Shown here: in pieces, positions 51,604 through 63,342 of the stretch
How the letters are laid out: every line of letters starts with the position of its first letter
Position numbering within the stretch: position 1 is the stretch's first letter
Source: Candidatus Micrarchaeota archaeon
GTDB taxonomy: Archaea; Micrarchaeota; Micrarchaeia; Micrarchaeales; Micrarchaeaceae
Length of the DNA: 64,000 nt
Direction of reading: 5' to 3'
Assembly: GCA_028866575.1 (NCBI GenBank)
Contig: JAGWHU010000002.1
Coordinates: 1 to 64,000, forward strand
Position numbers and translations under genes: made by a program
The notes under the pieces: generated by a model
Seen by the model: the letters and a program-made list of their open reading frames with translations, nothing else
Databases searched by the model: none
Told to the model about the DNA's origin: nothing

Positions 51604-52881
51604 TTACGGGCAGCCGGTGCAGCCCTGCGTGTATGCGCCGCTGAAGCTTGCACCGGTGATATTGGCCCCATTCAGGTTTGCGTACGCGAGATTCGCGCCC
51701 CTGAACTTTGCATTTGCAAAATCCGCGTTTTGCATGTTTGCATACGAGAGGTTGGCGCTTGAAAAATCCGAACCCACGAAATAGCCGTTGACCATGTATG
51801 TATACGACAGGTTTGCGCTGCGGAAATAGGTTGATATCCCGATGACGTTCCCCAGATTCGCCCCCTTGAGATCCACGTTATGGAAATTTGCATTTGTGAT
51901 TATCGCGTATTCAAGATCCGCGTATTCGAAATTGACGCCCTGGTTGAAGTTTGTCCCGGTCATGTTGGCGTTTACCAGATACGCATGTGAAAAGTTGCTT
52001 TGGACTATGCTTTCTCCGGACATGTCGTAGCCCCCGACATAGCAGTACGAAGCGTCTTCATGGTTCGGCGGATGCGGGAGCTGGCAGCTCCTGTATGTTA
52101 AGCCGAGGTATGTGGCCGTTATCGTGCAGCTCTGCGATGCGACGAAGTACGCGCCTTCCGTGGTTATCCCGCACCCAGATACGGAATGGAACGTGTATAT
52201 CGTATTGCCGCCCGTCAAAACTGTTGAGTTGTAGAACAGCGTGTGCCCGGTGCCCGATTTATACGTCATCGTAAGCGGCAATTGGCCGTATACGTAGTTT
52301 GCGCCGTCAAGTCCTAGTACGTCCGACTTCGGGTCCTGCATTTGCGATATCGCAAATGTGACAAGCACCGGCGGCTTGGATGGCGAGCTCTCTGTCCTGA
52401 AACTCCCGCCGTATATGAAGCTGTTGGAAGCGGGGCAGCTGTAGTTGTTGAGGCTTGAGGGCGAATTGGCGCAATAGCCGGCCGACATGCTGAATACGCC
52501 GTCATACAGCTCCCCCTGCACCCCTACCGTGCTGAAATTCGCGACGCAGAAGAACCTTTCCCCCGGTATTACGGTATTGGGCGTGCAGTAGCCGCTCGTG
52601 CTGTGTATGTTGTTTATGGAGGCGTTGAAACTGGTGAAGTTGACCACGCCGATCTGCCCGGCGCTTGCGAGTATTATCAGCTGCGACCCGGTGTCGTTTG
52701 GCAGGTTTATGTATATGAGATCGTGGCAGCTGAATGCGTTGTAGAACGTGCACTGGAATGGCAGTATCGTCTTCGGGAGCGATGTGTACAGTATCAGGAA
52801 CAGCAGCACCAGCGCTATTATGAGGAAGGTGAACCCGTATGTCGAAAGGAACTCTATCGCCGTCTGCCCATTTGCCCGCAT
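51604..52881 (-). CDS. Pilin-like protein with C-terminal pentapeptide repeats
   Basis: 425 residues from ATG 52881 (MRANGQTAIEFLSTYGF); an upstream GTG/ATG extension to 52932 is unlikely because it overlaps the KsgA promoter. The N-terminus is a class III (type IV pilin-like) signal: GQTAIEFLSTYG, then a hydrophobic helix. The middle is an extracellular beta-rich domain with several cysteines. From about residue 320 the protein is a pentapeptide-repeat solenoid (ANMTG TNFNQ, ADLEY, ANFHN VDLKG ANLGN, ... ANLAY ANLNG ANITG), ending in CTGCP. The combination suggests a surface filament or anchor with a rigid repeat tip. Confidence 0.78.
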   Translation of the reverse strand: MRANGQTAIEFLSTYGFTFLIIALVLLFLILYTSLPKTILPFQCTFYNAFSCHDLIYINLPNDTGSQLIILASAGQIGVVNFTSFNASINNIHSTSGYCTPNTVIPGERFFCVANFSTVGVQGELYDGVFSMSAGYCANSPSSLNNYSCPASNSFIYGGSFRTESSPSKPPVLVTFAISQMQDPKSDVLGLDGANYVYGQLPLTMTYKSGTGHTLFYNSTVLTGGNTIYTFHSVSGCGITTEGAYFVASQSCTITATYLGLTYRSCQLPHPPNHEDASYCYVGGYDMSGESIVQSNFSHAYLVNANMTGTNFNQGVNFEYADLEYAIITNANFHNVDLKGANLGNVIGISTYFRSANLSYTYMVNGYFVGSDFSSANLSYANMQNADFANAKFRGANLAYANLNGANITGASFSGAYTQGCTGCP

Positions 52882-52930
52882 GTTCTTAATAAAGCAACTA
52901 GCATATAAATAATTAACCGATTTTGATTGC
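52882..52930. promoter_or_regulatory. Divergent promoter of the pilin-like gene and ksgA
   Basis: CATATAAATAATT (about 52900-52912) is a TATA element about 25 bases before the ksgA ATG, which implies a leaderless transcript. The same A/T-rich stretch serves the divergent gene. Confidence 0.55.
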
Positions 52931-53728
52931 ATGGACGCTTCGGATTACAAGAGCGCGATAAGGGCCCTCGGCGCCCGAAAATCCTTGGGGCAGAACTTCA
53001 TGGTCAACAGGCAGATAGCTGCAATGGAGTCGGAGTATGCCAGGGATATGAGCGTGGTGGAGCTGGGACCAGGCCTGGGAATACTCACCTTGGAGCTCTG
53101 CAAGACCGCAAGGCGCGTAGTTGCCATAGAGAAGGACGAGCGCCTTTTCAATATGCTGGGCTCGGAGCTCAAGTCCAAGAAGCTCAGGCTCATAAACGGC
53201 GATTTCTTTTCGATGGAAAAGAAGGAATTCGATGGCATAGACATAATGGTATCTAACATACCGTACAGCCTTTCAAGCAAGACGATATACTGGCTGGGCT
53301 CCATGGGCATACCAGCGCTCATATGCATACAGCGTGAATTCGCGGAGCACATGCTTGCTGCTCCGGGGACGCGGAGCTATTCCAAGCTAAGCGTCATATC
53401 CGCGCTCAGGTTCAGGGCGCATTTGGTAATGGAGGTAGGTGCGAACAACTTCTACCCTGTGCCTAATGTCGATTCTTCGCTGGTCTATCTTGCGCCAAAG
53501 CCAGGGATCATGGACGAAAAGACAGCATCGACTATATCGCTCATAATGGGCCACAAGAAGAAGAGGCTGAGGAATGCGATAGCAGATTCGGCAAAGTCGC
53601 TCGGGATATCCAAGGAGTGCGCAAGGCTCGTCTCGGAGAAAATCGGGCATGCTGACGAAAGGCCGTTTCACATGGACCCGGAAACCATACTGGGGGTAGC
53701 GAAGGATGTGAACCGCGCCCTCTACTAG
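52931..53728 (+). CDS. ksgA: rRNA dimethyladenosine transferase (KsgA/Dim1)
   Basis: A 265-residue enzyme that dimethylates two adenines at the 3' end of 16S rRNA. ARKSLGQNFMVNRQI is the family start. The SAM site is VVELGPGLGILTLEL, then VVAIEKDERLF and INGDFFSM. The catalytic motif is SNIPYSLS. The C-terminal helical domain ends normally. Leaderless promoter. It overlaps the hydrolase gene by four bases, convergently. Confidence 0.94.
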   Translation: MDASDYKSAIRALGARKSLGQNFMVNRQIAAMESEYARDMSVVELGPGLGILTLELCKTARRVVAIEKDERLFNMLGSELKSKKLRLINGDFFSMEKKEFDGIDIMVSNIPYSLSSKTIYWLGSMGIPALICIQREFAEHMLAAPGTRSYSKLSVISALRFRAHLVMEVGANNFYPVPNVDSSLVYLAPKPGIMDEKTASTISLIMGHKKKRLRNAIADSAKSLGISKECARLVSEKIGHADERPFHMDPETILGVAKDVNRALY

Positions 53729-54390
53729 AAAGAGTACATCGGCTCCTGGACCTCCTTGAGTATGAGCGCGTTCTTCAGCTTCCCTGTTACGCTTTTTTCC
53801 AGCTGGTCAGACCTCTCGCGCCCTAGGACCATCTTGTAGTGCATCGGTATTACAGTCTTCGGTCCTATTTTCTTGGCTGCATTGATCGCGTCCTCTTCTG
53901 CCATGGTGTACGTGCCGCCCATCGGGAGCAGGGCGACGTCTATATCCCTGATATTCTCCATTTCAGGTATGAGGTCTGTATCTCCCGCATGGTATATCCT
54001 GGTGCCGTCTATGCTTATCACGTAGCCGACCCAGTTCTCGGATTTCGGGTGGAACTTCTGCCTCTCCTCGCTTTTGTTGTATGCTGATACCGCCTCTATC
54101 TCCACATCGTTAATCTTTGTCCTGAAGCCGGGCATTGAAACCTCCAGGTGCCTGTACTCCTTCCCGTCAAGGCAGTTCTTCGGTGCTATGATCCTCGTGC
54201 TGTCTTTGCGCACCCTGTCTATGTCGGCCTTGCTGTTGTGATCGAAGTGTGGGTGCGTTATGAGCATTATGTCGGCCTTTTCCTTTATGCCATCGCCCAC
54301 CTTGAATGGGTCTATGAATATTGTCGTGCCCTTTGCCTTTATGTAGAATGCCGCGTGGCCTATCCAGAATATGCTTTCCCTTACGTTCAT
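53725..54390 (-). CDS. Metallo-beta-lactamase-fold hydrolase (UPF0173 type)
   Basis: A 221-residue hydrolase. The zinc motif is LITHPHFDHN (HxHxDH), with further ligands in IYHAGDTDLIPEM and VIPMHYKM. IFWIGHAAFYI at the start is typical of the UPF0173/YtkL family. The substrate is unknown; members are thought to be phosphodiesterases or lactonases. It is convergent with ksgA. Length is normal. Confidence 0.86.
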   Translation of the reverse strand: MNVRESIFWIGHAAFYIKAKGTTIFIDPFKVGDGIKEKADIMLITHPHFDHNSKADIDRVRKDSTRIIAPKNCLDGKEYRHLEVSMPGFRTKINDVEIEAVSAYNKSEERQKFHPKSENWVGYVISIDGTRIYHAGDTDLIPEMENIRDIDVALLPMGGTYTMAEEDAINAAKKIGPKTVIPMHYKMVLGRERSDQLEKSVTGKLKNALILKEVQEPMYSF

Positions 54391-54517
54391 CTAATCACAC
54401 AATCACTCTGTTTTTCAAGAATTTAGCGGTTGCGCTTTTCTTTGCTAGGGGCATCGGGCGCCGCATCGCCATAGATAAATATTTATAGAGATAATATGTA
54501 GTATTTGCGTATCTTCA

Positions 54518-57500
54518 ATGCGGCAAATGATGGGGATGGTTGGCAAAGAACTATTCACGGCTAAGTGGATCACGCTTGTCTTGCTATTTGCGGCGTTCCT
54601 CCCCGTTGCGTTTACCGGAATAGCAAACGGTGCCAGTGCCGGCTCTTCCTACGATTTCATAATAGGCAACACCCTCGGCAACAGCAGCGTCGCGAACTAC
54701 ATAATATCCAACACCTACGCGATGAACTATCTCCTTGCGAATCCGGAAACCCTGGGCTATTTCCTGAACTTTTCAATGGCGACCAACTCCGTGCTGAATA
54801 ATCCATCGATAACAACTGTAACGATGAACGGGAGTTCCCTTGTATATTTCATGTCCAATCCCTCCTTCGGCAGCGTGCTGCAGAACTACCCGCAGTTCAA
54901 CAATTTCGTGGGCAGCGGCAACGTTTCAGGCATAACCGCAAACCACGAGCTGCTTACCTGCCTGCTGGCGAATCCCTCCCTAGCTACCGTTGCGCAAAGC
55001 CCCTCGACATTCTATTCATTCATAGCCCAGCCGGGAATGCAGAGGATAGAGAATAACACGAACGAATACGCAAGCCTTCTGTGCAATCCCGCGCTTGCCG
55101 CGATAGCAGCAAACGGCACCTCTTTGTCGTCCTTTGCATCCTCTTCCTCCTCAACACCCATAACGGGAAACCCCGCGGCATTTACCAGCCTTCTCGGGAA
55201 TCCCGCATTGCAGAGCATACTCGCCAATCCTAACCTTACAAGGTTCATGGGAAGCTCTGGATCTGCCAGCCTGATGTCCAATCCGCAGTTCATAATTTTC
55301 ATGAGCAACCCTGCATTCAACAATTTCCTGAATACCGGAGCCACACCTACGCAGGTGTCCGGCCTCATGGGCAATTCAGCCCTCAGCGCCATAACCAGCA
55401 ACAGCATTAAGCTTGCGGCCCTCCTGGGCAATCCAGGGCTTGCCAGCGTGATAGCAAACCAGGCGGCGCTCGCCTCGATGCTTTCGACACCTAGCCTCAA
55501 CCCCATTACCGGCAATCCCGCTGTGCTTACAACACTTCTGAGCAATCCTGCTCTCGGTGCAGTTCTAGGCAACGAAAGCAAGATGGTAAGCTTCATGAGC
55601 CAGTCCTCGCTTGCGCCAGTTACCACTAACCCGGGGGCGCTTACGTTGCTGTTCAGCAATCCCGCACTTGGCGGCGTCATGGCAAACCCGGCAGGGCTTG
55701 GAACCGTGTTCAGCAATCCGATGATGCAATCGTCGATGCAGAACCCGCAGGTGTTCTCGCTGTTCCTCACAACGCCTGCGCTTGCGCAGATAGTAAATAA
55801 CCCTAACACGTTCGTCAGCCTGATGACTACCACACAGCTGTCGAATTTCCTTTACAGCCCCCAGCAGATGTTCGCGTTCATAAACAACCCCGCATTCGGT
55901 GGCATACTGGCAAGCCCCGGGGCCATGACCGGTTTCCTGCAGAGCCCTAATACAGGCACCATAGTCAACAATCCCTATCTCCTTGGCAGCCTTGTGGGCA
56001 ACCCATCGCTTGGCACCGTAATAAACAATCCGGCCCAGGTAGGCTCCATAATGACTAACCCTGCCCTTGTCCCGATAACCAACAACTCGTACTACACTGC
56101 GCAACTTCTGGGAAACCCCGGGCTTGCAGGCATAGCCAGTAACCAGGGGCAGCTTGCAAGCTTCATAGGCAACCCAGCATTCGTAGTCAACGGCAACAAC
56201 ATATTCCAGAACAGCGCGGTGTTCGCGCCGATGCTGAGCAATCCCTCCCTTATAACGCTCATGGCAAACCCCAGCATGCTCTCCGGCTTCCTTGCGAATC
56301 CCAGCTACTCAAACATAGCTGGCAATCCGGCGCTGCTCGGGGGCCTGTTCGCCAATCCGCAATTGGGCACGCTTTTGGGCAATCCAACTTATTTCAACAC
56401 AATGCTCGGAAGCCCCGGCATGGGACCTATACTCGGCAATCCCGCAGCGTTCGCGAACTTCCTTTCAAATCCCTCAATGGTATCGATACTCGGCAATCCT
56501 GCGATGCTAGCCAATCTCGGGAACATAGCTACAGGCGCCGCGTTCGGCCAGTTCGTCGGCAGCCCGTCTTTCGTATCGATGATGTCCAATCCGCTTCTTG
56601 GGAGCAGCAGCATGCTCGGCAATCCCGCAGCCATAGGCCAGCTGGCAAGCCTTGTATCAGGGAACCCTGCTGCGCTTCCTGTACTCGGGAATCCCGCATT
56701 CGCCAGCCTGTTCGGAAGCCCAGCTCTTGCAAGCCTGCTCAACAACCCTGGCGCAGGTGCGATAACCGCAAACCCTGCAACAGAGAGCCTGCTGAGCAAC
56801 CCGCTCATGTCAGGCCTGCTCGGCGCCCCGACAGCAACAAGCTTCTTCAACAACCCGTCGCTTAGCAACCTCATGGCAAACACGCACATATCATCGGTCC
56901 TTGGAAGCAGCGCGCTTGGCACTCTTGCATCTAATCCTGGGCTCAACGGCCTTTTCACGAATTCCCAGCTCAACAACATATTTTCCGGAGGGCCCGCAGG
57001 CGCTGGATTGCAGGCGCTCACCTCCTCCGGCGGACTGCTTGGATCAGCATTGTCCGGTGTCGGGTCCTTCGGCGGCCTGGGAATACCTGGAATAGGCGCA
57101 TGCCCGCTTTCTACGCCATACTTCGGCTTTTGCACATACGTCAACACGACGGTAGTTGAAACGGATTACACCAGCTTTGCAGGAAGCGGCCAGATAACGT
57201 CGCTGCCTCCGATATCGCTGCAGAGCCCTACGCCGCTTATTGAGACAGTGCTTAGCGACAACCAGCAGAACGGGCAGTGGCTCATCACCTGCCCAGTGAC
57301 TCCGAATTCCGCCAACACGCAGCTCTACTTCACCACATCCGCCAATTCCTTCATCGGTGGCAACAGGTGCCTTGCTGACATAACCCCGCTGCTCACGCCG
57401 ATAAACCTCTACACTTTCGTATGGTGGACACCTTTCACCGTTGCTCTTGCGGACAACTACTACACGATAAGCAACATAGCGAACGGCTGGGTGTACGACA

Positions 57501-60500
57501 TCGCGTATTCAGGGCAGACGCAGACATCCGGCGGCGCGAAATACAACATATCCAACGGCTACAGCACCGAATCCTACATATTCGACCAGGTTCCTTCGTC
57601 CACGCAGCACGGGCTTTGGTCATGGAGCGCGAAATACGTCAACCTGAAGAAGACGGACCTCACAAAGCTCCAGTTCACGCAGGAGTACGACAATTTACAG
57701 CTCGTCATACCGTTCGTATGCATATACAATTACAACTACAAGGTAACTTCTGCGATAGCTAGCATAAACAACACCAACATATCGGTTCCGCAGGTGAACA
57801 ACAGCGCGCTCAAGAGCGGAAACTGGTTCAACTACAGCGGCTACCTTTACAGCCCTGTGAAGACGCTTCCTGGAGGCGACACATGCTACTATGCGCTGCT
57901 TCTCGGGCAGGAGCTGCAGAACGGCGGTGCATCATGCGGCGGCTGGACAAAGGTATCGACCAACGGCACCATAGAGATAGGGGGAGTCAAGTATTCAGGG
58001 CTCAACATATACTACGGATCGGCGAACACAGCATCCGGCAGCTACGCAACGACACCGAAGCCGATGTATTCGGATACGCTGCTGGCGGCATATGCGAACG
58101 GCTATGCGGAAGTGAATGCATGGGGGCTCAACTTCACCAACGTCAGCATACTGCCCTACATAAACTACCAGCTTTCCATACCCGCGTCCGCTACGCCCTT
58201 GAACAACCAGATAACATTCTACAACCAGACCTACGGCGTTTATACGCCGCACAACTACGCAACGCTCGGAAATTCGCTTGACGAGCTCCCCATGTACGGC
58301 GGCACGGAATTCTTCGCAACTTACAACGGCTACCTGACTGAATTCCCGTTCAACGTGGTATCGATAGACTATCCAGATCCTAACAGCCTCACTATGGCGC
58401 AGGACAATTTCCTCAGCAACCTAAACCAGCAGCAGGCTGCGCTTGTGGGATTCGGCGTAGGCGCGAACGGCCACGAGACTAAGTTCGGCAGCTTCGTGTA
58501 CGGGCGAATATACAATCCGCAGTTCATAACCGCGTCGCCCAACGGCTACGTATACGTAATCGCGTCCTCGACGACATGCGGCCTTCTCTGCTTCATATCC
58601 TCCACGACTACCACGTACATCTACACCTTCAAGTTCATACCGCAGGGTTACTACAACTTCACGAACTACCAGCCTGCCGCCATTCCGTTCACAGACAATG
58701 CAGTTACGTGGAACACCAACTGGAAGAACTATTTCGCGAGCACCTTCCTCTCCGGGAGCCAGAACCTCTACCTCGTTGGAATAAGCCAGCTTTCCTCGGT
58801 GAGGCACATACTCGTGGGCTTCAAGATAAACAACGGCGGGGCGCTCTACAAGTTTACGCCGCTTGCCGCGCAGACGGACACTGCCGGAGACCTTTTCTTG
58901 GTAGGCGATGTGGACAAGTCCGGTGCGTTCGCGATCGCGGCGCTTACCCCGCCAGGCAGCGGAAACTACGTCGAGAACGACATAGTCGCGGCTCCGCCGT
59001 GGTTCCTCCCGAGCGGCGAGCTTGCCGTGTCCCCGGGAGGCCAGTTCGTCTACGTTGGTAATGTTTCGTACAATCCAAGCGGCGGCGGCCTCTTCGCAGA
59101 TGAGGGCGGGGGCATAGAGGTATACAAGACAAGCCCGCAGGGAGGGCCGAGATCAGGCGTTGCGTCCAACGCGTTCACCTACGTGGGCAACATACCATTG
59201 AGCTACTCTAACGACACCTACGACCTGAACATAATAGCCTATCTTGCTAACGGTGGGCCGTACAACGACACGGCAGTGAAGAACGCTTACAAGCCGCTGC
59301 TTGCGCAGGGCGTCAACGTCCCTGATACCAGCAATTACCACCATCCTGTTGCGATAGCTGATTCGCAGGGCATACTTTACGTGCTTGACAACTGGAGCTT
59401 CGTGATGCCGCAGCAGGCCAGCTACGCTCACATTTCCATACTGATGCTTAGGGCATTCTCCGCGAACGGCGTAGAGATACCCGTGGACCAGCAGGACATA
59501 AACGATTTCGTGCCGAAGCCCGGGCAGATAATCACATCGCTGCCCACAGGGGTCACGCCTACGTACGGCTGGGCGCCATACGGATGGCCGCTGTCCGCAT
59601 CGGTATCGATACCGAACGGAGGCACTGAGACATACTGCGCGCTGGATTGCCAGTACGGGCCGTTTGACACCAACACGCCGTATCCCCCGATAGGCCCGAG
59701 GACTGATGCGCTTGACGGGCACATAGGGCCCGGAGCGAACACCGTAGGCATGTATTCGGATTTCAACGGCACGCTTTACCTGATAGCGCATGCGTGGCAG
59801 TTCGGCGCCGGAGGAACAAACTGGTGCTGGAACCCGCAGGTCGGCTTCGACTGCGGAAGCAGCATACAGCCCAAGAAGGGACTTTACACCGAACTGCTCG
59901 CGTTCAGGCCGAAGATACAGAACTATACAAAGCTGGACTTCATGGCCAACGATTCCGATTACACCTGCTACCTTAACGTGAGCCCGCCGAACCCGGACAA
60001 CAACCCCTGCATATACAACGCCAACACCGCAATGATACAGTACATATCACCGCCTGTGCTCGGGATCCCTGATTCGTTCGGCTATGCCGAGAGCCTCGGG
60101 ACGCCGCAGCAGTACCTCAATGTCCAGAACCAGCTTTCCTCGCTGTTCCCCAAGGGCATAGAGACCAACAACTACTACAGCCAGACCAACCAGGAGTTGA
60201 ACACAGGGCTTGGAACAGCCAACTACAACACGCTTGCAACAGGGCCGCTGGCAAGCGGCACTGCGCCCAGCGTGAGCCTGCCAGGCACATACCTAAGGAG
60301 CAGCCTCAACGGCTATGCTGTAGTGCCCTACAACGTAACGCTCATACTCAACCAGTCATGGACTGATACTGGGCTTGACGTGCCGCTCAATCCGCTGTTC
60401 CCGGTATGCCCGCCGATATTCGGCACGGGGATAAGCGTCAGCAGCAAGACGACCAGCTACAAGTACCAGGTTACCCCGCTTTCAAGCAAATCAGGCCCGT

Positions 60501-62014
60501 TGAACCAGACGATAGAGGGAGGAAGTACATACCTTCAGTACCTGCCGCAGCAGACGAATTACGTCCAGAACCTCTCGGATGCGGGGCTCATAATATCGCC
60601 GTACATAAATTACCAGCTGTACACCAACAGGCTTCCCGGGGAGATATACATAAACCAGACGATAAGCCCGCAGAGTGCAGCTACTGCAGCGACTTCAAGG
60701 GGCGCACCTGTAGTGATAAACGCTGCGCACAACTACAACTACCAGACGCAGCTGTTCCAGCAGGTATCCAGTTTCGGGACCAACTACGGCTATGAGACGC
60801 AGATAGCAATACCATCCGCTTCGACAGGCGCTAGTTGCGGAGTGATATGCCAGCCCAACTATTACTATGACAGCAATTACTTCACAGATACGAGCAAGAT
60901 ACAGTACTACAACGAGAACATAACGCAGTTCTTCCAGCTCTTCAACGTATTCCAGCAATCATCGCACCTCGCGAACCTTGTGCTCAACCTCACGACCGCA
61001 ACTTCGGTGCTGGGGTACAACAGGTTGCTCTACACATACGTTGACAGGTTCAACAACACCGTATCCATGCCCCTTGACGTGAACCTGGCAAACATAACCG
61101 TTATGACGCTTACAGCTGATCCGCTGATAAACCCCTCGAACGAGAACCAGACGAGCGTCACGGTGCAGGGAACCGCAACCTACACTACACCCATAGGAAC
61201 GCACCCGATACCCTCAGGATCCAACATATACCTGTACTGGAACTACAACATAAACTACTACAATTCCACATCATCGCCATCCGGATCCGGCAGCGGCAAC
61301 CCATCAGCATACTACAAGTGGGCGCTTCTTTGCACGCTTGCGCCGACATCAAAGAGCTGCGCGCTGGCCAACCCGCTGAGCACGCAGACGCAGAAGCAGC
61401 CGGACGGGGCGCAGGAGGCCTCGCAGATAGATTATCACACAGAGGCCGGATTGGTCGGAGGATGCCCGAAGCAGCCGAAGAGCCTGTTGACTCCGATAGT
61501 ATACGACTGCAACATATTCAGCAATACGATAGGCAACGTGATAAGGAACGACCCGAACAACCCGAGCGTATACCAGTACTGCATACCGGTATTCCCGAAC
61601 GGCACGGGGCTTTTCACCTCGCAGCTCGGCCTCATAGGGGTGACGCAGACAGACGGCTCGGGCAACTTCCACTATACGTTCAACGCGTGCGGCGTCGGCC
61701 AGAACAGGGTCATAGCCGTTTATTACGGGAACCCGCCGCCGGAGCCGCTTGACGTCTCGCAAACATGGCTGGGAGCTTCCGGCGGATCAGACCAGTTCTC
61801 CGGCCAGATAGACCAGAACGACATACTGGCAAAGGTTCCGGAATACGATTACAGCGACGCGCCGAACTACACTACCACGCAGTTCGAGATAGGGTCCTAC
61901 GTGCTCAGCTACGGCACGATAGGGATCGCATCCGTGGTTGCGCTGGTAGGGATTGTGGCCATCATAGCGTTCCTTTCAATGGGCAGGAAGCGCAGAAGAA
62001 GGAGGGTGAGATGA
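54518..62014 (+). CDS. Giant cell-surface protein with Asn-Pro tandem repeats (2,498 residues)
   Basis: Start ATG 54518 after an A/T-rich promoter (TATTTATAGAG near 54479). An N-terminal hydrophobic segment (WITLVLLFAAFLPVAFTG) directs export. Residues about 43-830 are tandem repeats whose units contain Asn-Pro (GNPALLGGLFANPQLGTLLG) at alternating 9-10 residue spacing. From about 860 to 2450 the protein is a large extracellular region rich in Tyr, Asn, Ser, Thr and Gly, with paired cysteines (ACPLSTPYFGFCTY, TTCGLLCFIS, SCGVICQP) and no recognised enzyme motif. A C-terminal helix (YGTIGIASVVALVGIVAIIAFL) and KRRRRRVR anchor it. It overlaps the next gene by four bases. Confidence 0.85.
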   Translation: MRQMMGMVGKELFTAKWITLVLLFAAFLPVAFTGIANGASAGSSYDFIIGNTLGNSSVANYIISNTYAMNYLLANPETLGYFLNFSMATNSVLNNPSITTVTMNGSSLVYFMSNPSFGSVLQNYPQFNNFVGSGNVSGITANHELLTCLLANPSLATVAQSPSTFYSFIAQPGMQRIENNTNEYASLLCNPALAAIAANGTSLSSFASSSSSTPITGNPAAFTSLLGNPALQSILANPNLTRFMGSSGSASLMSNPQFIIFMSNPAFNNFLNTGATPTQVSGLMGNSALSAITSNSIKLAALLGNPGLASVIANQAALASMLSTPSLNPITGNPAVLTTLLSNPALGAVLGNESKMVSFMSQSSLAPVTTNPGALTLLFSNPALGGVMANPAGLGTVFSNPMMQSSMQNPQVFSLFLTTPALAQIVNNPNTFVSLMTTTQLSNFLYSPQQMFAFINNPAFGGILASPGAMTGFLQSPNTGTIVNNPYLLGSLVGNPSLGTVINNPAQVGSIMTNPALVPITNNSYYTAQLLGNPGLAGIASNQGQLASFIGNPAFVVNGNNIFQNSAVFAPMLSNPSLITLMANPSMLSGFLANPSYSNIAGNPALLGGLFANPQLGTLLGNPTYFNTMLGSPGMGPILGNPAAFANFLSNPSMVSILGNPAMLANLGNIATGAAFGQFVGSPSFVSMMSNPLLGSSSMLGNPAAIGQLASLVSGNPAALPVLGNPAFASLFGSPALASLLNNPGAGAITANPATESLLSNPLMSGLLGAPTATSFFNNPSLSNLMANTHISSVLGSSALGTLASNPGLNGLFTNSQLNNIFSGGPAGAGLQALTSSGGLLGSALSGVGSFGGLGIPGIGACPLSTPYFGFCTYVNTTVVETDYTSFAGSGQITSLPPISLQSPTPLIETVLSDNQQNGQWLITCPVTPNSANTQLYFTTSANSFIGGNRCLADITPLLTPINLYTFVWWTPFTVALADNYYTISNIANGWVYDIAYSGQTQTSGGAKYNISNGYSTESYIFDQVPSSTQHGLWSWSAKYVNLKKTDLTKLQFTQEYDNLQLVIPFVCIYNYNYKVTSAIASINNTNISVPQVNNSALKSGNWFNYSGYLYSPVKTLPGGDTCYYALLLGQELQNGGASCGGWTKVSTNGTIEIGGVKYSGLNIYYGSANTASGSYATTPKPMYSDTLLAAYANGYAEVNAWGLNFTNVSILPYINYQLSIPASATPLNNQITFYNQTYGVYTPHNYATLGNSLDELPMYGGTEFFATYNGYLTEFPFNVVSIDYPDPNSLTMAQDNFLSNLNQQQAALVGFGVGANGHETKFGSFVYGRIYNPQFITASPNGYVYVIASSTTCGLLCFISSTTTTYIYTFKFIPQGYYNFTNYQPAAIPFTDNAVTWNTNWKNYFASTFLSGSQNLYLVGISQLSSVRHILVGFKINNGGALYKFTPLAAQTDTAGDLFLVGDVDKSGAFAIAALTPPGSGNYVENDIVAAPPWFLPSGELAVSPGGQFVYVGNVSYNPSGGGLFADEGGGIEVYKTSPQGGPRSGVASNAFTYVGNIPLSYSNDTYDLNIIAYLANGGPYNDTAVKNAYKPLLAQGVNVPDTSNYHHPVAIADSQGILYVLDNWSFVMPQQASYAHISILMLRAFSANGVEIPVDQQDINDFVPKPGQIITSLPTGVTPTYGWAPYGWPLSASVSIPNGGTETYCALDCQYGPFDTNTPYPPIGPRTDALDGHIGPGANTVGMYSDFNGTLYLIAHAWQFGAGGTNWCWNPQVGFDCGSSIQPKKGLYTELLAFRPKIQNYTKLDFMANDSDYTCYLNVSPPNPDNNPCIYNANTAMIQYISPPVLGIPDSFGYAESLGTPQQYLNVQNQLSSLFPKGIETNNYYSQTNQELNTGLGTANYNTLATGPLASGTAPSVSLPGTYLRSSLNGYAVVPYNVTLILNQSWTDTGLDVPLNPLFPVCPPIFGTGISVSSKTTSYKYQVTPLSSKSGPLNQTIEGGSTYLQYLPQQTNYVQNLSDAGLIISPYINYQLYTNRLPGEIYINQTISPQSAATAATSRGAPVVINAAHNYNYQTQLFQQVSSFGTNYGYETQIAIPSASTGASCGVICQPNYYYDSNYFTDTSKIQYYNENITQFFQLFNVFQQSSHLANLVLNLTTATSVLGYNRLLYTYVDRFNNTVSMPLDVNLANITVMTLTADPLINPSNENQTSVTVQGTATYTTPIGTHPIPSGSNIYLYWNYNINYYNSTSSPSGSGSGNPSAYYKWALLCTLAPTSKSCALANPLSTQTQKQPDGAQEASQIDYHTEAGLVGGCPKQPKSLLTPIVYDCNIFSNTIGNVIRNDPNNPSVYQYCIPVFPNGTGLFTSQLGLIGVTQTDGSGNFHYTFNACGVGQNRVIAVYYGNPPPEPLDVSQTWLGASGGSDQFSGQIDQNDILAKVPEYDYSDAPNYTTTQFEIGSYVLSYGTIGIASVVALVGIVAIIAFLSMGRKRRRRRVR
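54640..57000 (+). repeat. Tandem Asn-Pro protein-repeat region
   Basis: About 40 double units of roughly 19-21 residues with the pattern hhxNPxxxxhh, where h is Leu, Ile, Val, Met or Phe. At DNA level the repeats are varied and recognisable mainly as AATCC/AACCC (Asn-Pro) codons at regular spacing, so the repeat is old or under selection to vary. Confidence 0.8.
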
Positions 62015-63342
62015 TGCTTCACCTGATCCTGAGCCTGGGTTCCGTATACGCCTTCATACCAGTAGTAGTGATATTCATACTAATACTTGCGGCAAGGGGA
62101 TCGATAGGAAGGGACTTCTTCGAGGTATTCGGAATAGCCAGCCTTGTGGGCTGGACCAAGGGCATAGCCACGGGCGGCGCGGGAAAGGGAATCGGAAGGG
62201 GAAGGGCATACAAGAGCAATGCGGAGCGAACCGCGCCTGCAGCTGGACAGGCTGGAAGGACCCTGCTCGGGCATCAGGACACGTTCAGGTCAAGGAATGA
62301 CCTTGAGTCGGGAGGAAGGGGAAGGAGGGAGAGCGGCCTCGGACTGAAGCCTGGAAAGTACAACCTGTACGCAAGGACGGAAGCCAACCCCGGAGGCAGG
62401 GTTTTGGGTAAGTTCGGCGAAGGCGGCAAAAGGATACACGAGGAGAAGTTCTGGAGGAGGGGATTGCCGGAAAGGTACGGCGAGACGTTCCATGGAGAGC
62501 TGTGGGGCAAATATGCAGGGGACAAGACAAGCATACTCGGCAAGATGAGCGACGGCCAGATACACTCGATGCTCAAGCAGTACGGGCTTGACAACAGGAC
62601 TGCTGGCATGGACAAGGCTGCGCTCGCGGAGTTTGCAGTATACAACCTTTCGCTCATAAGGATTAGCGACTATTACGACAGGAACGTAAGGCCTTCGAAG
62701 AAGCCAGGGGGAACGCCTGAGCCGCTCAGGGCGCCGGAGTCCTCGCCCTACCCGCAGGGCGTGCGCATGGCGATAAAGGACTGGTACAAGAACTACTACA
62801 ACGCGAGAAGGGGCAAGGTGTTCGACACAAGCATAAAGTCGAGGGCAGAAAAGGAGCGCGAGGCAGCAAGGCAGCAGAGGAGCCAGGCCGGCAGGGCGCC
62901 ATCAGGCGGCGGAGCCACGGGCGGCGCGGGAAAGGAAAGCAGCGGCAATACATCCACTGACAGCAAGCTTGCGCTCATGAGCGACATGTCCCTCGAGGAG
63001 ATAATGCTGCTCTGCAATTCCTACGGCATACCTGCAAAGAACATAAAGGACAGGGACAGGTACGCAGCATATGCCGCGAGCATGATAGTCGATCCGGGGC
63101 AGATAAGCAGGTTCAAGGAGGATTACCTGAAGAGGGGATCGGCCCCGCAAAGCCCGGACGAAAAGAGAAGGGCGGATCTCATCGGCGGGATGTCCCTTGA
63201 CGACATACAGTCAATGGTCAACAGCTACGGCAACCCGGCAATAGACAGCAGGGACAGGGGCGAGTGGATCAGATACGCGAGCTCGAAGCTCAGCACCGAC
63301 CAGGTCGAGAAATACATAAACAGCAGGCGCAAACAAAAGTGA
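62011..63342 (+). CDS. Membrane-anchored partner of the giant protein, with three helical repeats
   Basis: 443 residues from ATG 62011, which overlaps the stop of the giant gene (ATGA); the open frame upstream is a shadow. One N-terminal membrane helix (LSLGSVYAFIPVVVIFILILA) precedes a Gly/Lys/Arg-rich cytoplasmic region. Three copies of a helical repeat of about 45-50 residues follow (near residues 177-225, 323-370 and 390-440), each starting like MSDGQIHSMLKQYGL, MSLEEIMLLCNSYGIP or MSLDDIQSMVNSYGNP. These resemble SAP-like helix-extended-helix units, although DNA binding at the membrane is unproven. Coupled synthesis suggests a complex with the giant protein. Confidence 0.75.
   Translation: MMLHLILSLGSVYAFIPVVVIFILILAARGSIGRDFFEVFGIASLVGWTKGIATGGAGKGIGRGRAYKSNAERTAPAAGQAGRTLLGHQDTFRSRNDLESGGRGRRESGLGLKPGKYNLYARTEANPGGRVLGKFGEGGKRIHEEKFWRRGLPERYGETFHGELWGKYAGDKTSILGKMSDGQIHSMLKQYGLDNRTAGMDKAALAEFAVYNLSLIRISDYYDRNVRPSKKPGGTPEPLRAPESSPYPQGVRMAIKDWYKNYYNARRGKVFDTSIKSRAEKEREAARQQRSQAGRAPSGGGATGGAGKESSGNTSTDSKLALMSDMSLEEIMLLCNSYGIPAKNIKDRDRYAAYAASMIVDPGQISRFKEDYLKRGSAPQSPDEKRRADLIGGMSLDDIQSMVNSYGNPAIDSRDRGEWIRYASSKLSTDQVEKYINSRRKQK

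Follow-up and report, generated by a model that had tools for sequence, protein, structure and literature searches.

Here we describe a giant surface protein of a micrarchaeon in which a conserved body, by homology a Micrarchaeota family common to most of its order, is combined with an N-terminal module that is swapped between species. In the source species this module is an array in which a 19-residue unit built on NP dipeptides recurs about 40 times, predicted to stack as a short-helix alpha-solenoid. We consider it reasonably probable that the protein is a conserved surface platform whose tip, a rod or adhesin particular to the lineage, would serve in contact with other cells.

The window, meaning the whole 64,000-nucleotide stretch analysed, comes from a genome of 1.13 Mb that is 97.5% complete. 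The open reading frame at 54518-62014 (+) has no internal stops, bearing out the 2,498-residue protein of the initial annotation, and shares with its family the conserved body, the C-terminal transmembrane helix with basic tail, and the conserved neighbours. The signal peptide is followed by about 40 repeat units and a body of ~1,640 residues, and the chain closes with a transmembrane helix and a tail rich in K and R. That this is a surface protein, as had been proposed, is backed by the signal peptide, by the C-terminal helix and tail, and by the same layout in homologs. The features of the gene are listed below; the TATA-like box, signal peptide, junction and C-terminal segment were read from the sequence.

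54482..54487 (+): TATA-like box TTTATA, centred ~33 nt 5' of the ATG of the giant gene
54518..62014 (+): giant surface protein gene; intact ORF with ATG start, 2498 aa, conserved family
54518..54637 (+): N-terminal signal peptide or hydrophobic segment, residues 1-40 (KWITLVLLFAAFLPVAFTGIANGASA); homologs likewise begin signal-like
54701..57007 (+): 19-residue NP repeat array, residues ~62-830; ~40 units, STI1-like, predicted short-helix alpha-solenoid
57008..57097 (+): residues ~831-860, Gly/Ser-rich; joins the array to the body, where the similarity of many homologs sets in at residue ~861
57098..62011 (+): body conserved in the family (residues 861-2498); beta-rich, present once in the genome
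58505..60397 (+): probable beta-propeller segment, residues ~1330-1960, boundaries approximate; 1l0q profile match, all-beta model, Foldseek propellers
61130..61753 (+): juxtamembrane beta-sandwich or putatively Ig-like region, residues ~2205-2412; family-invariant cysteines, strands in the model
61904..62011 (+): C-terminal transmembrane helix and basic tail GRKRRRRRVR; homologs end alike

The TTTATA box may serve as the promoter, and a near-leaderless archaeal transcript would fit its position.

The conserved body, its neighbours and its exchangeable modules

Members of the body family (residues 861-2498) are encoded by 49 of the 60 genomes nearest to the source and, across the phylum, by 95 of 245, with nearly all matches in the two families of the same order. 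Its 72 titled loci include those of Ca. Micrarchaeum sp. A_DKE and ARM-1, and the nearest named homologs are Micrarchaeota by genome record, except for several bins labelled Marsarchaeota, which we take to be mislabelled. Many Cys, Gly and Trp residues are invariant in the body alignment, and the invariant cysteine columns of the modelled segment are C1058, C1067, C1102, C1117, C1141 and C1177. Homologs whose C-terminus is intact nearly all close with a hydrophobic helix (L094 is an exception), in most cases with a basic tail behind it.

Several comparisons suggest that the body likely holds a beta-propeller. Its AF2 model is beta-rich to all-beta at moderate confidence (pLDDT 63, pTM 0.55), its profile matches the Methanosarcina surface layer protein 1l0q (E 1.2e-7), two of 30 family members have an NHL match, and the top Foldseek matches of the model include integrin alpha chains and propellers, at low TM-scores. 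The YVTN surface-layer protein 1l0q matches the probable propeller segment of the body by profile, although the best matching stretch is the size of a blade and the remaining body is without a PDB or Pfam match. The integrin alpha chain, with a propeller, beta-sandwich legs and a single C-terminal transmembrane helix, is a comparison of how the protein might work and nothing further: TM-scores are ~0.12-0.14 by query length at 6-8% identity, with no evidence of homology; integrins also carry their propeller at the N-terminus, unlike the giant protein.

The genes on either side of the giant gene recur in its family.

51604..52932 (-): pilin-like protein with N-terminal GQTAIEFLSTYGF...; conserved neighbour, class III signal-like by eye
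52931..53728 (+): KsgA-type rRNA dimethylase; Pfam RrnaAD 2e-41, 18 other loci
53725..54390 (-): metallo-beta-lactamase-fold protein; Pfam Lactamase_B_3 2.6e-33, same position in ~12 loci
62011..63342 (+): next gene downstream, encoding 443 aa, hydrophobic in an N-terminal segment and then basic; overlaps the giant gene stop by 4 nt

The pilin-like, KsgA and metallo-beta-lactamase genes lie upstream of the giant gene in many family members; in the source genome the pilin-like protein also has C-terminal pentapeptide repeats. The downstream protein is strongly conserved in an N-terminal motif (LSxxAIxxxIPIIIIIILIAAAAGLTRGxDIF), while its remainder is variable and basic. By a strict pattern, at least 32 of the 67 homologs have a similar small membrane protein encoded after them, and the gene in the window is probably co-transcribed with the giant gene as a partner. 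Just past the end of the window (L021:2008-2850, contig 64008-64850), some 2 kb beyond the giant gene, is an SLT lytic-transglycosylase protein (E 4e-20) with an internal hydrophobic stretch (possibly a signal or transmembrane segment); among the loci compared it is closest to L059, a giant-protein paralog that itself bears an SLT domain.

What precedes the body varies widely. Across 70 homologs this stretch has a median of ~72 residues, essentially the signal peptide alone, and a sizeable minority carries 290-1,400 residues. The modules include Ig/PKD, Gly-rich, InlB B-repeat, Kelch-like, DUF445-like long-helical, MgtE_N-like repeat and NlpC/P60 versions, or none. Since most homologs are without such a module, the rod is dispensable for the core role of the family. 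The paralog L059, from genome G011, has at residues ~30-400 a helical repeat of 12/24 residues (LxPSQLSxLIPQLS; MgtE_N, 31.9 bits), which like the NP array is an N-terminal repeat of short helices on the same body. It differs from the array in period and sequence, and the two are likely of independent origin. Family members in other Micrarchaeota carry domains that degrade peptidoglycan, one SLT, two NlpC/P60 and one phage tail lysozyme (L059, 985-1096 aa; L049, 734-842; L056, 88-188; L120, 639-776). Archaea are not known to possess murein, so these domains may act on bacteria. Archaeal peptidoglycan hydrolases are treated in a paper that serves for comparison (PMC12352652).

The conservation of the body across the order, the many homologs without a tip module, and the relation of the propeller to an archaeal surface-layer protein would also fit an S-layer or general envelope scaffold component, with the array a spacer that has no binding role. 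We regard this as rather unlikely, in view of a distinct PF05124 S_layer_C protein encoded on another contig of the same genome (G000:C3:39772-42759) and of the giant protein's own predicted transmembrane helix, which would anchor it, as against the A_DKE S-layer protein, whose anchoring is drawn as unknown (PMC8975820). Pfam finds neither S_layer domain (PF05123 or PF05124) in the giant protein, and the distinct S_layer_C gene rules it out as an S-layer subunit. The PF05124 protein of the source genome is 54% identical to that of A_DKE, where the S-layer gene was identified by its Pfam domain; one in-frame TAA is reported inside the matched stretch of the former.

The NP repeat array and its likeness to STI1-type domains

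Residues 75-806 of the giant protein contain 45 NP dipeptides, whose successive spacings are chiefly 9 (12 times) and 10 (nine times); spacings of 19 and 28 mark places at which an NP has degenerated into NS, SP, NQ or the like. Autocorrelation of residues along the array peaks at 19, 38, 57 and 76, and the repeat consensus is NPxxLxxLLSNPxLxxIxx, with hydrophobic columns 5, 8, 9, 14 and 17. The initial annotation was thus right about the 9 and 10 spacings, while its unit of roughly 20 residues is in fact one of 19 (10+9). Its estimate of about 40 units in the N-terminal third also holds, as a cyclic 19-state profile resolves ~40 over residues ~62-830, covering 760 of 820 residues, with 33 units having at least 15 letters. 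The parse score was 544, compared with 81±51 (maximum 130) for 20 shuffles trained identically.

Units share ~29% amino-acid identity, and residues shared between them use the same codon in 45% of cases versus 41% expected from codon usage. Such identity and near-random codon choice indicate old, diverged copies in which the protein pattern has been kept, and no recent duplication of the DNA. Together, the shuffles and the codon analysis rule out chance or low complexity as the source of the periodicity. Five residues (S, L, N, A and G) constitute 60% of the composition, and 11 of 790 residues are charged, a near-absence of charge that suits the surface of an acidophile.

For ten repeat units, AF2 predicted two short helices per 19 residues throughout, a total of 20 in the 190 residues modelled, each 4-9 and mostly 7-9 residues long (pLDDT 65, pTM 0.57). 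The solenoid suggested earlier is therefore matched, at moderate confidence, by a predicted alpha-solenoid of helix pairs, although the repeat could be disordered or adopt another fold. The nearest PDB structures to this model are ARM-type solenoids, but Foldseek returned nothing from the PDB at E<=0.001, and an ARM/HEAT alpha-solenoid match was not reached (best E 0.089, TM <= 0.46). Foldseek similarity to tail fibres and to the repeat capsid protein of phiH was weak and not significant (E 0.006-0.02).

Sequence searches with the repeat found no match among solved structures and no relatives in 301 genomes of the phylum, in a bacterial/archaeal contig collection, or in phages and viral contigs, the contig scans being ones that need short exact peptide matches and could miss distant relatives. 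At family level (85 genomes), the sole match was one in G061 at E=0.008, interrupted by a stop. A phage or viral origin was considered and set aside, no relatives having been found in phages or viral contigs.

Pfam comparisons place the repeat nearer to known domains. The isolated array scores 42.3 bits against STI1-HOP_DP (PF17830; cut-off 29.1) and 33.9 bits against UBQLN1 (PF23195; cut-off 27), with XPC-binding as a third, weak match. Control arrays, comprising the reversed array, three shuffles with every N and P fixed and one full shuffle, reached at most 10.5 bits for the STI1/UBQLN1-type models. The description of the repeat as novel therefore stands insofar as no sequence relative was found in anything searched, but not insofar as these two families exceed their cut-offs in the isolated array with clean controls. 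The whole giant protein scores 27.2 bits against PF17830, under the 29.1 cut-off, and no individual PF17830 stretch is significant in the array. The array's score is thus a sum of weak units, and we name it STI1-like, after the motif of eukaryotic co-chaperones, not STI1.

The likeness appears to be one of grammar. As in STI1/HOP-DP and UBQLN1 domains, the array has short amphipathic helices of ~8 residues that would begin with NP or DP, 9-10 residues apart, seen in both the consensus and the AF2 model. Unlike STI1/HOP-DP, which forms one compact helical domain, the array has ~40 regular units in strict 10-9 alternation, and the DP-domain helix spacing of 9-13-10 (taken from the sequences of 7kw7 and 2llw) is absent from it. 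It also differs from both families in being secreted, nearly uncharged and without TPR or UBA; Pfam finds none of the TPR or UBL/UBA domains of the cytosolic co-chaperone context in the giant protein, which has a signal peptide and a transmembrane helix instead.

These features bear on a further reading, in which the array would be a true secreted STI1/DP expansion whose groove binds hydrophobic helices or peptides like ubiquilin STI1, capturing hydrophobic segments of partner cells. The above-cut-off Pfam scores and the capped amphipathic helices with their hydrophobic columns are consistent with such an expansion, but we consider it quite unlikely given the lack of a significant single PF17830 stretch, the differing spacing and the secreted context; in addition, a six-frame search of the source genome for the STI1 family was silent, and hhalign of the repeat profile against three DP sequences, a comparison of small profiles, gave no support (probability 10.6% over 13 columns). 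A low-complexity spacer, passive and largely disordered, with a periodicity kept by slippage would suit the simple composition and the moderate AF2 confidence, yet is very improbable, as the NP and hydrophobic columns persist across units so diverged in residues and codons, which points to selection on the protein pattern, and the hydrophobic residues follow an amphipathic i, i+3, i+4 spacing.

A proposed surface platform with a variable tip

Precedents within the phylum are consistent with a platform bearing a lineage-specific tip. The micrarchaeon Mia14 has several strain-specific surface proteins of large size, in which PKD and YVTN propeller domains occur and for which a part in cell-cell contact has been proposed (PMC5498576), and contacts between a micrarchaeon and its host are filament-like (PMC8975820). 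Set side by side by description, MIA14_0152, _0331, _0793 and _0946 (PMC5498576) resemble the giant protein in being very large and secreted, with propeller and Ig/PKD modules, but they are strain-specific and no NP repeat is mentioned for them, whereas the body described here is order-wide.

We propose that the giant protein would be exported by Sec and anchored as a type-I membrane protein, held by its C-terminal transmembrane helix with the basic tail in the cytoplasm. The beta-rich body, with its probable beta-propeller and beta-sandwich domains, would stand outside the membrane and carry the exchangeable module at its outer N-terminal end. In the source species, ~40 pairs of short NP-capped helices would stack into an extended, uncharged alpha-solenoid rod, extending a stiff or springy, acid-stable binding surface toward neighbours, be they a host archaeon, other biofilm cells or matrix. 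At a roughly guessed ~10 A for each pair of helices, the rod would measure some 30-40 nm.

Micrarchaeota have a host-dependent lifestyle, and host contact is compatible with this lifestyle together with the pattern of variable tips. Adhesion or host contact by the giant protein is plausible, and contact with a host or a neighbour seems to us its most reasonable use. The conserved body argues for a general role in the envelope, and only the tip can be species-specific. More tentatively, we raise the possibility of a single integrin-like platform across Micrarchaeales, in which the species-exchanged tip sets the partner cell and the NP array represents a new class of secreted STI1-like alpha-solenoid tip.

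These findings may bear on how DPANN archaea recognise their partners. A conserved platform with a species-specific tip would yield candidates that can be named and tested, among them the homolog of the cultured A_DKE/Scheffleriplasma co-culture, whose gene lies at ~400.6-406.6 kb of NZ_CP060530.1. An STI1-like grammar of helices in an extracellular, archaeal protein can throw light on the origin of solenoids made of short helices. Furthermore, the peptidoglycan-hydrolase domains of relatives point to a possible engagement of some Micrarchaeota with bacteria.
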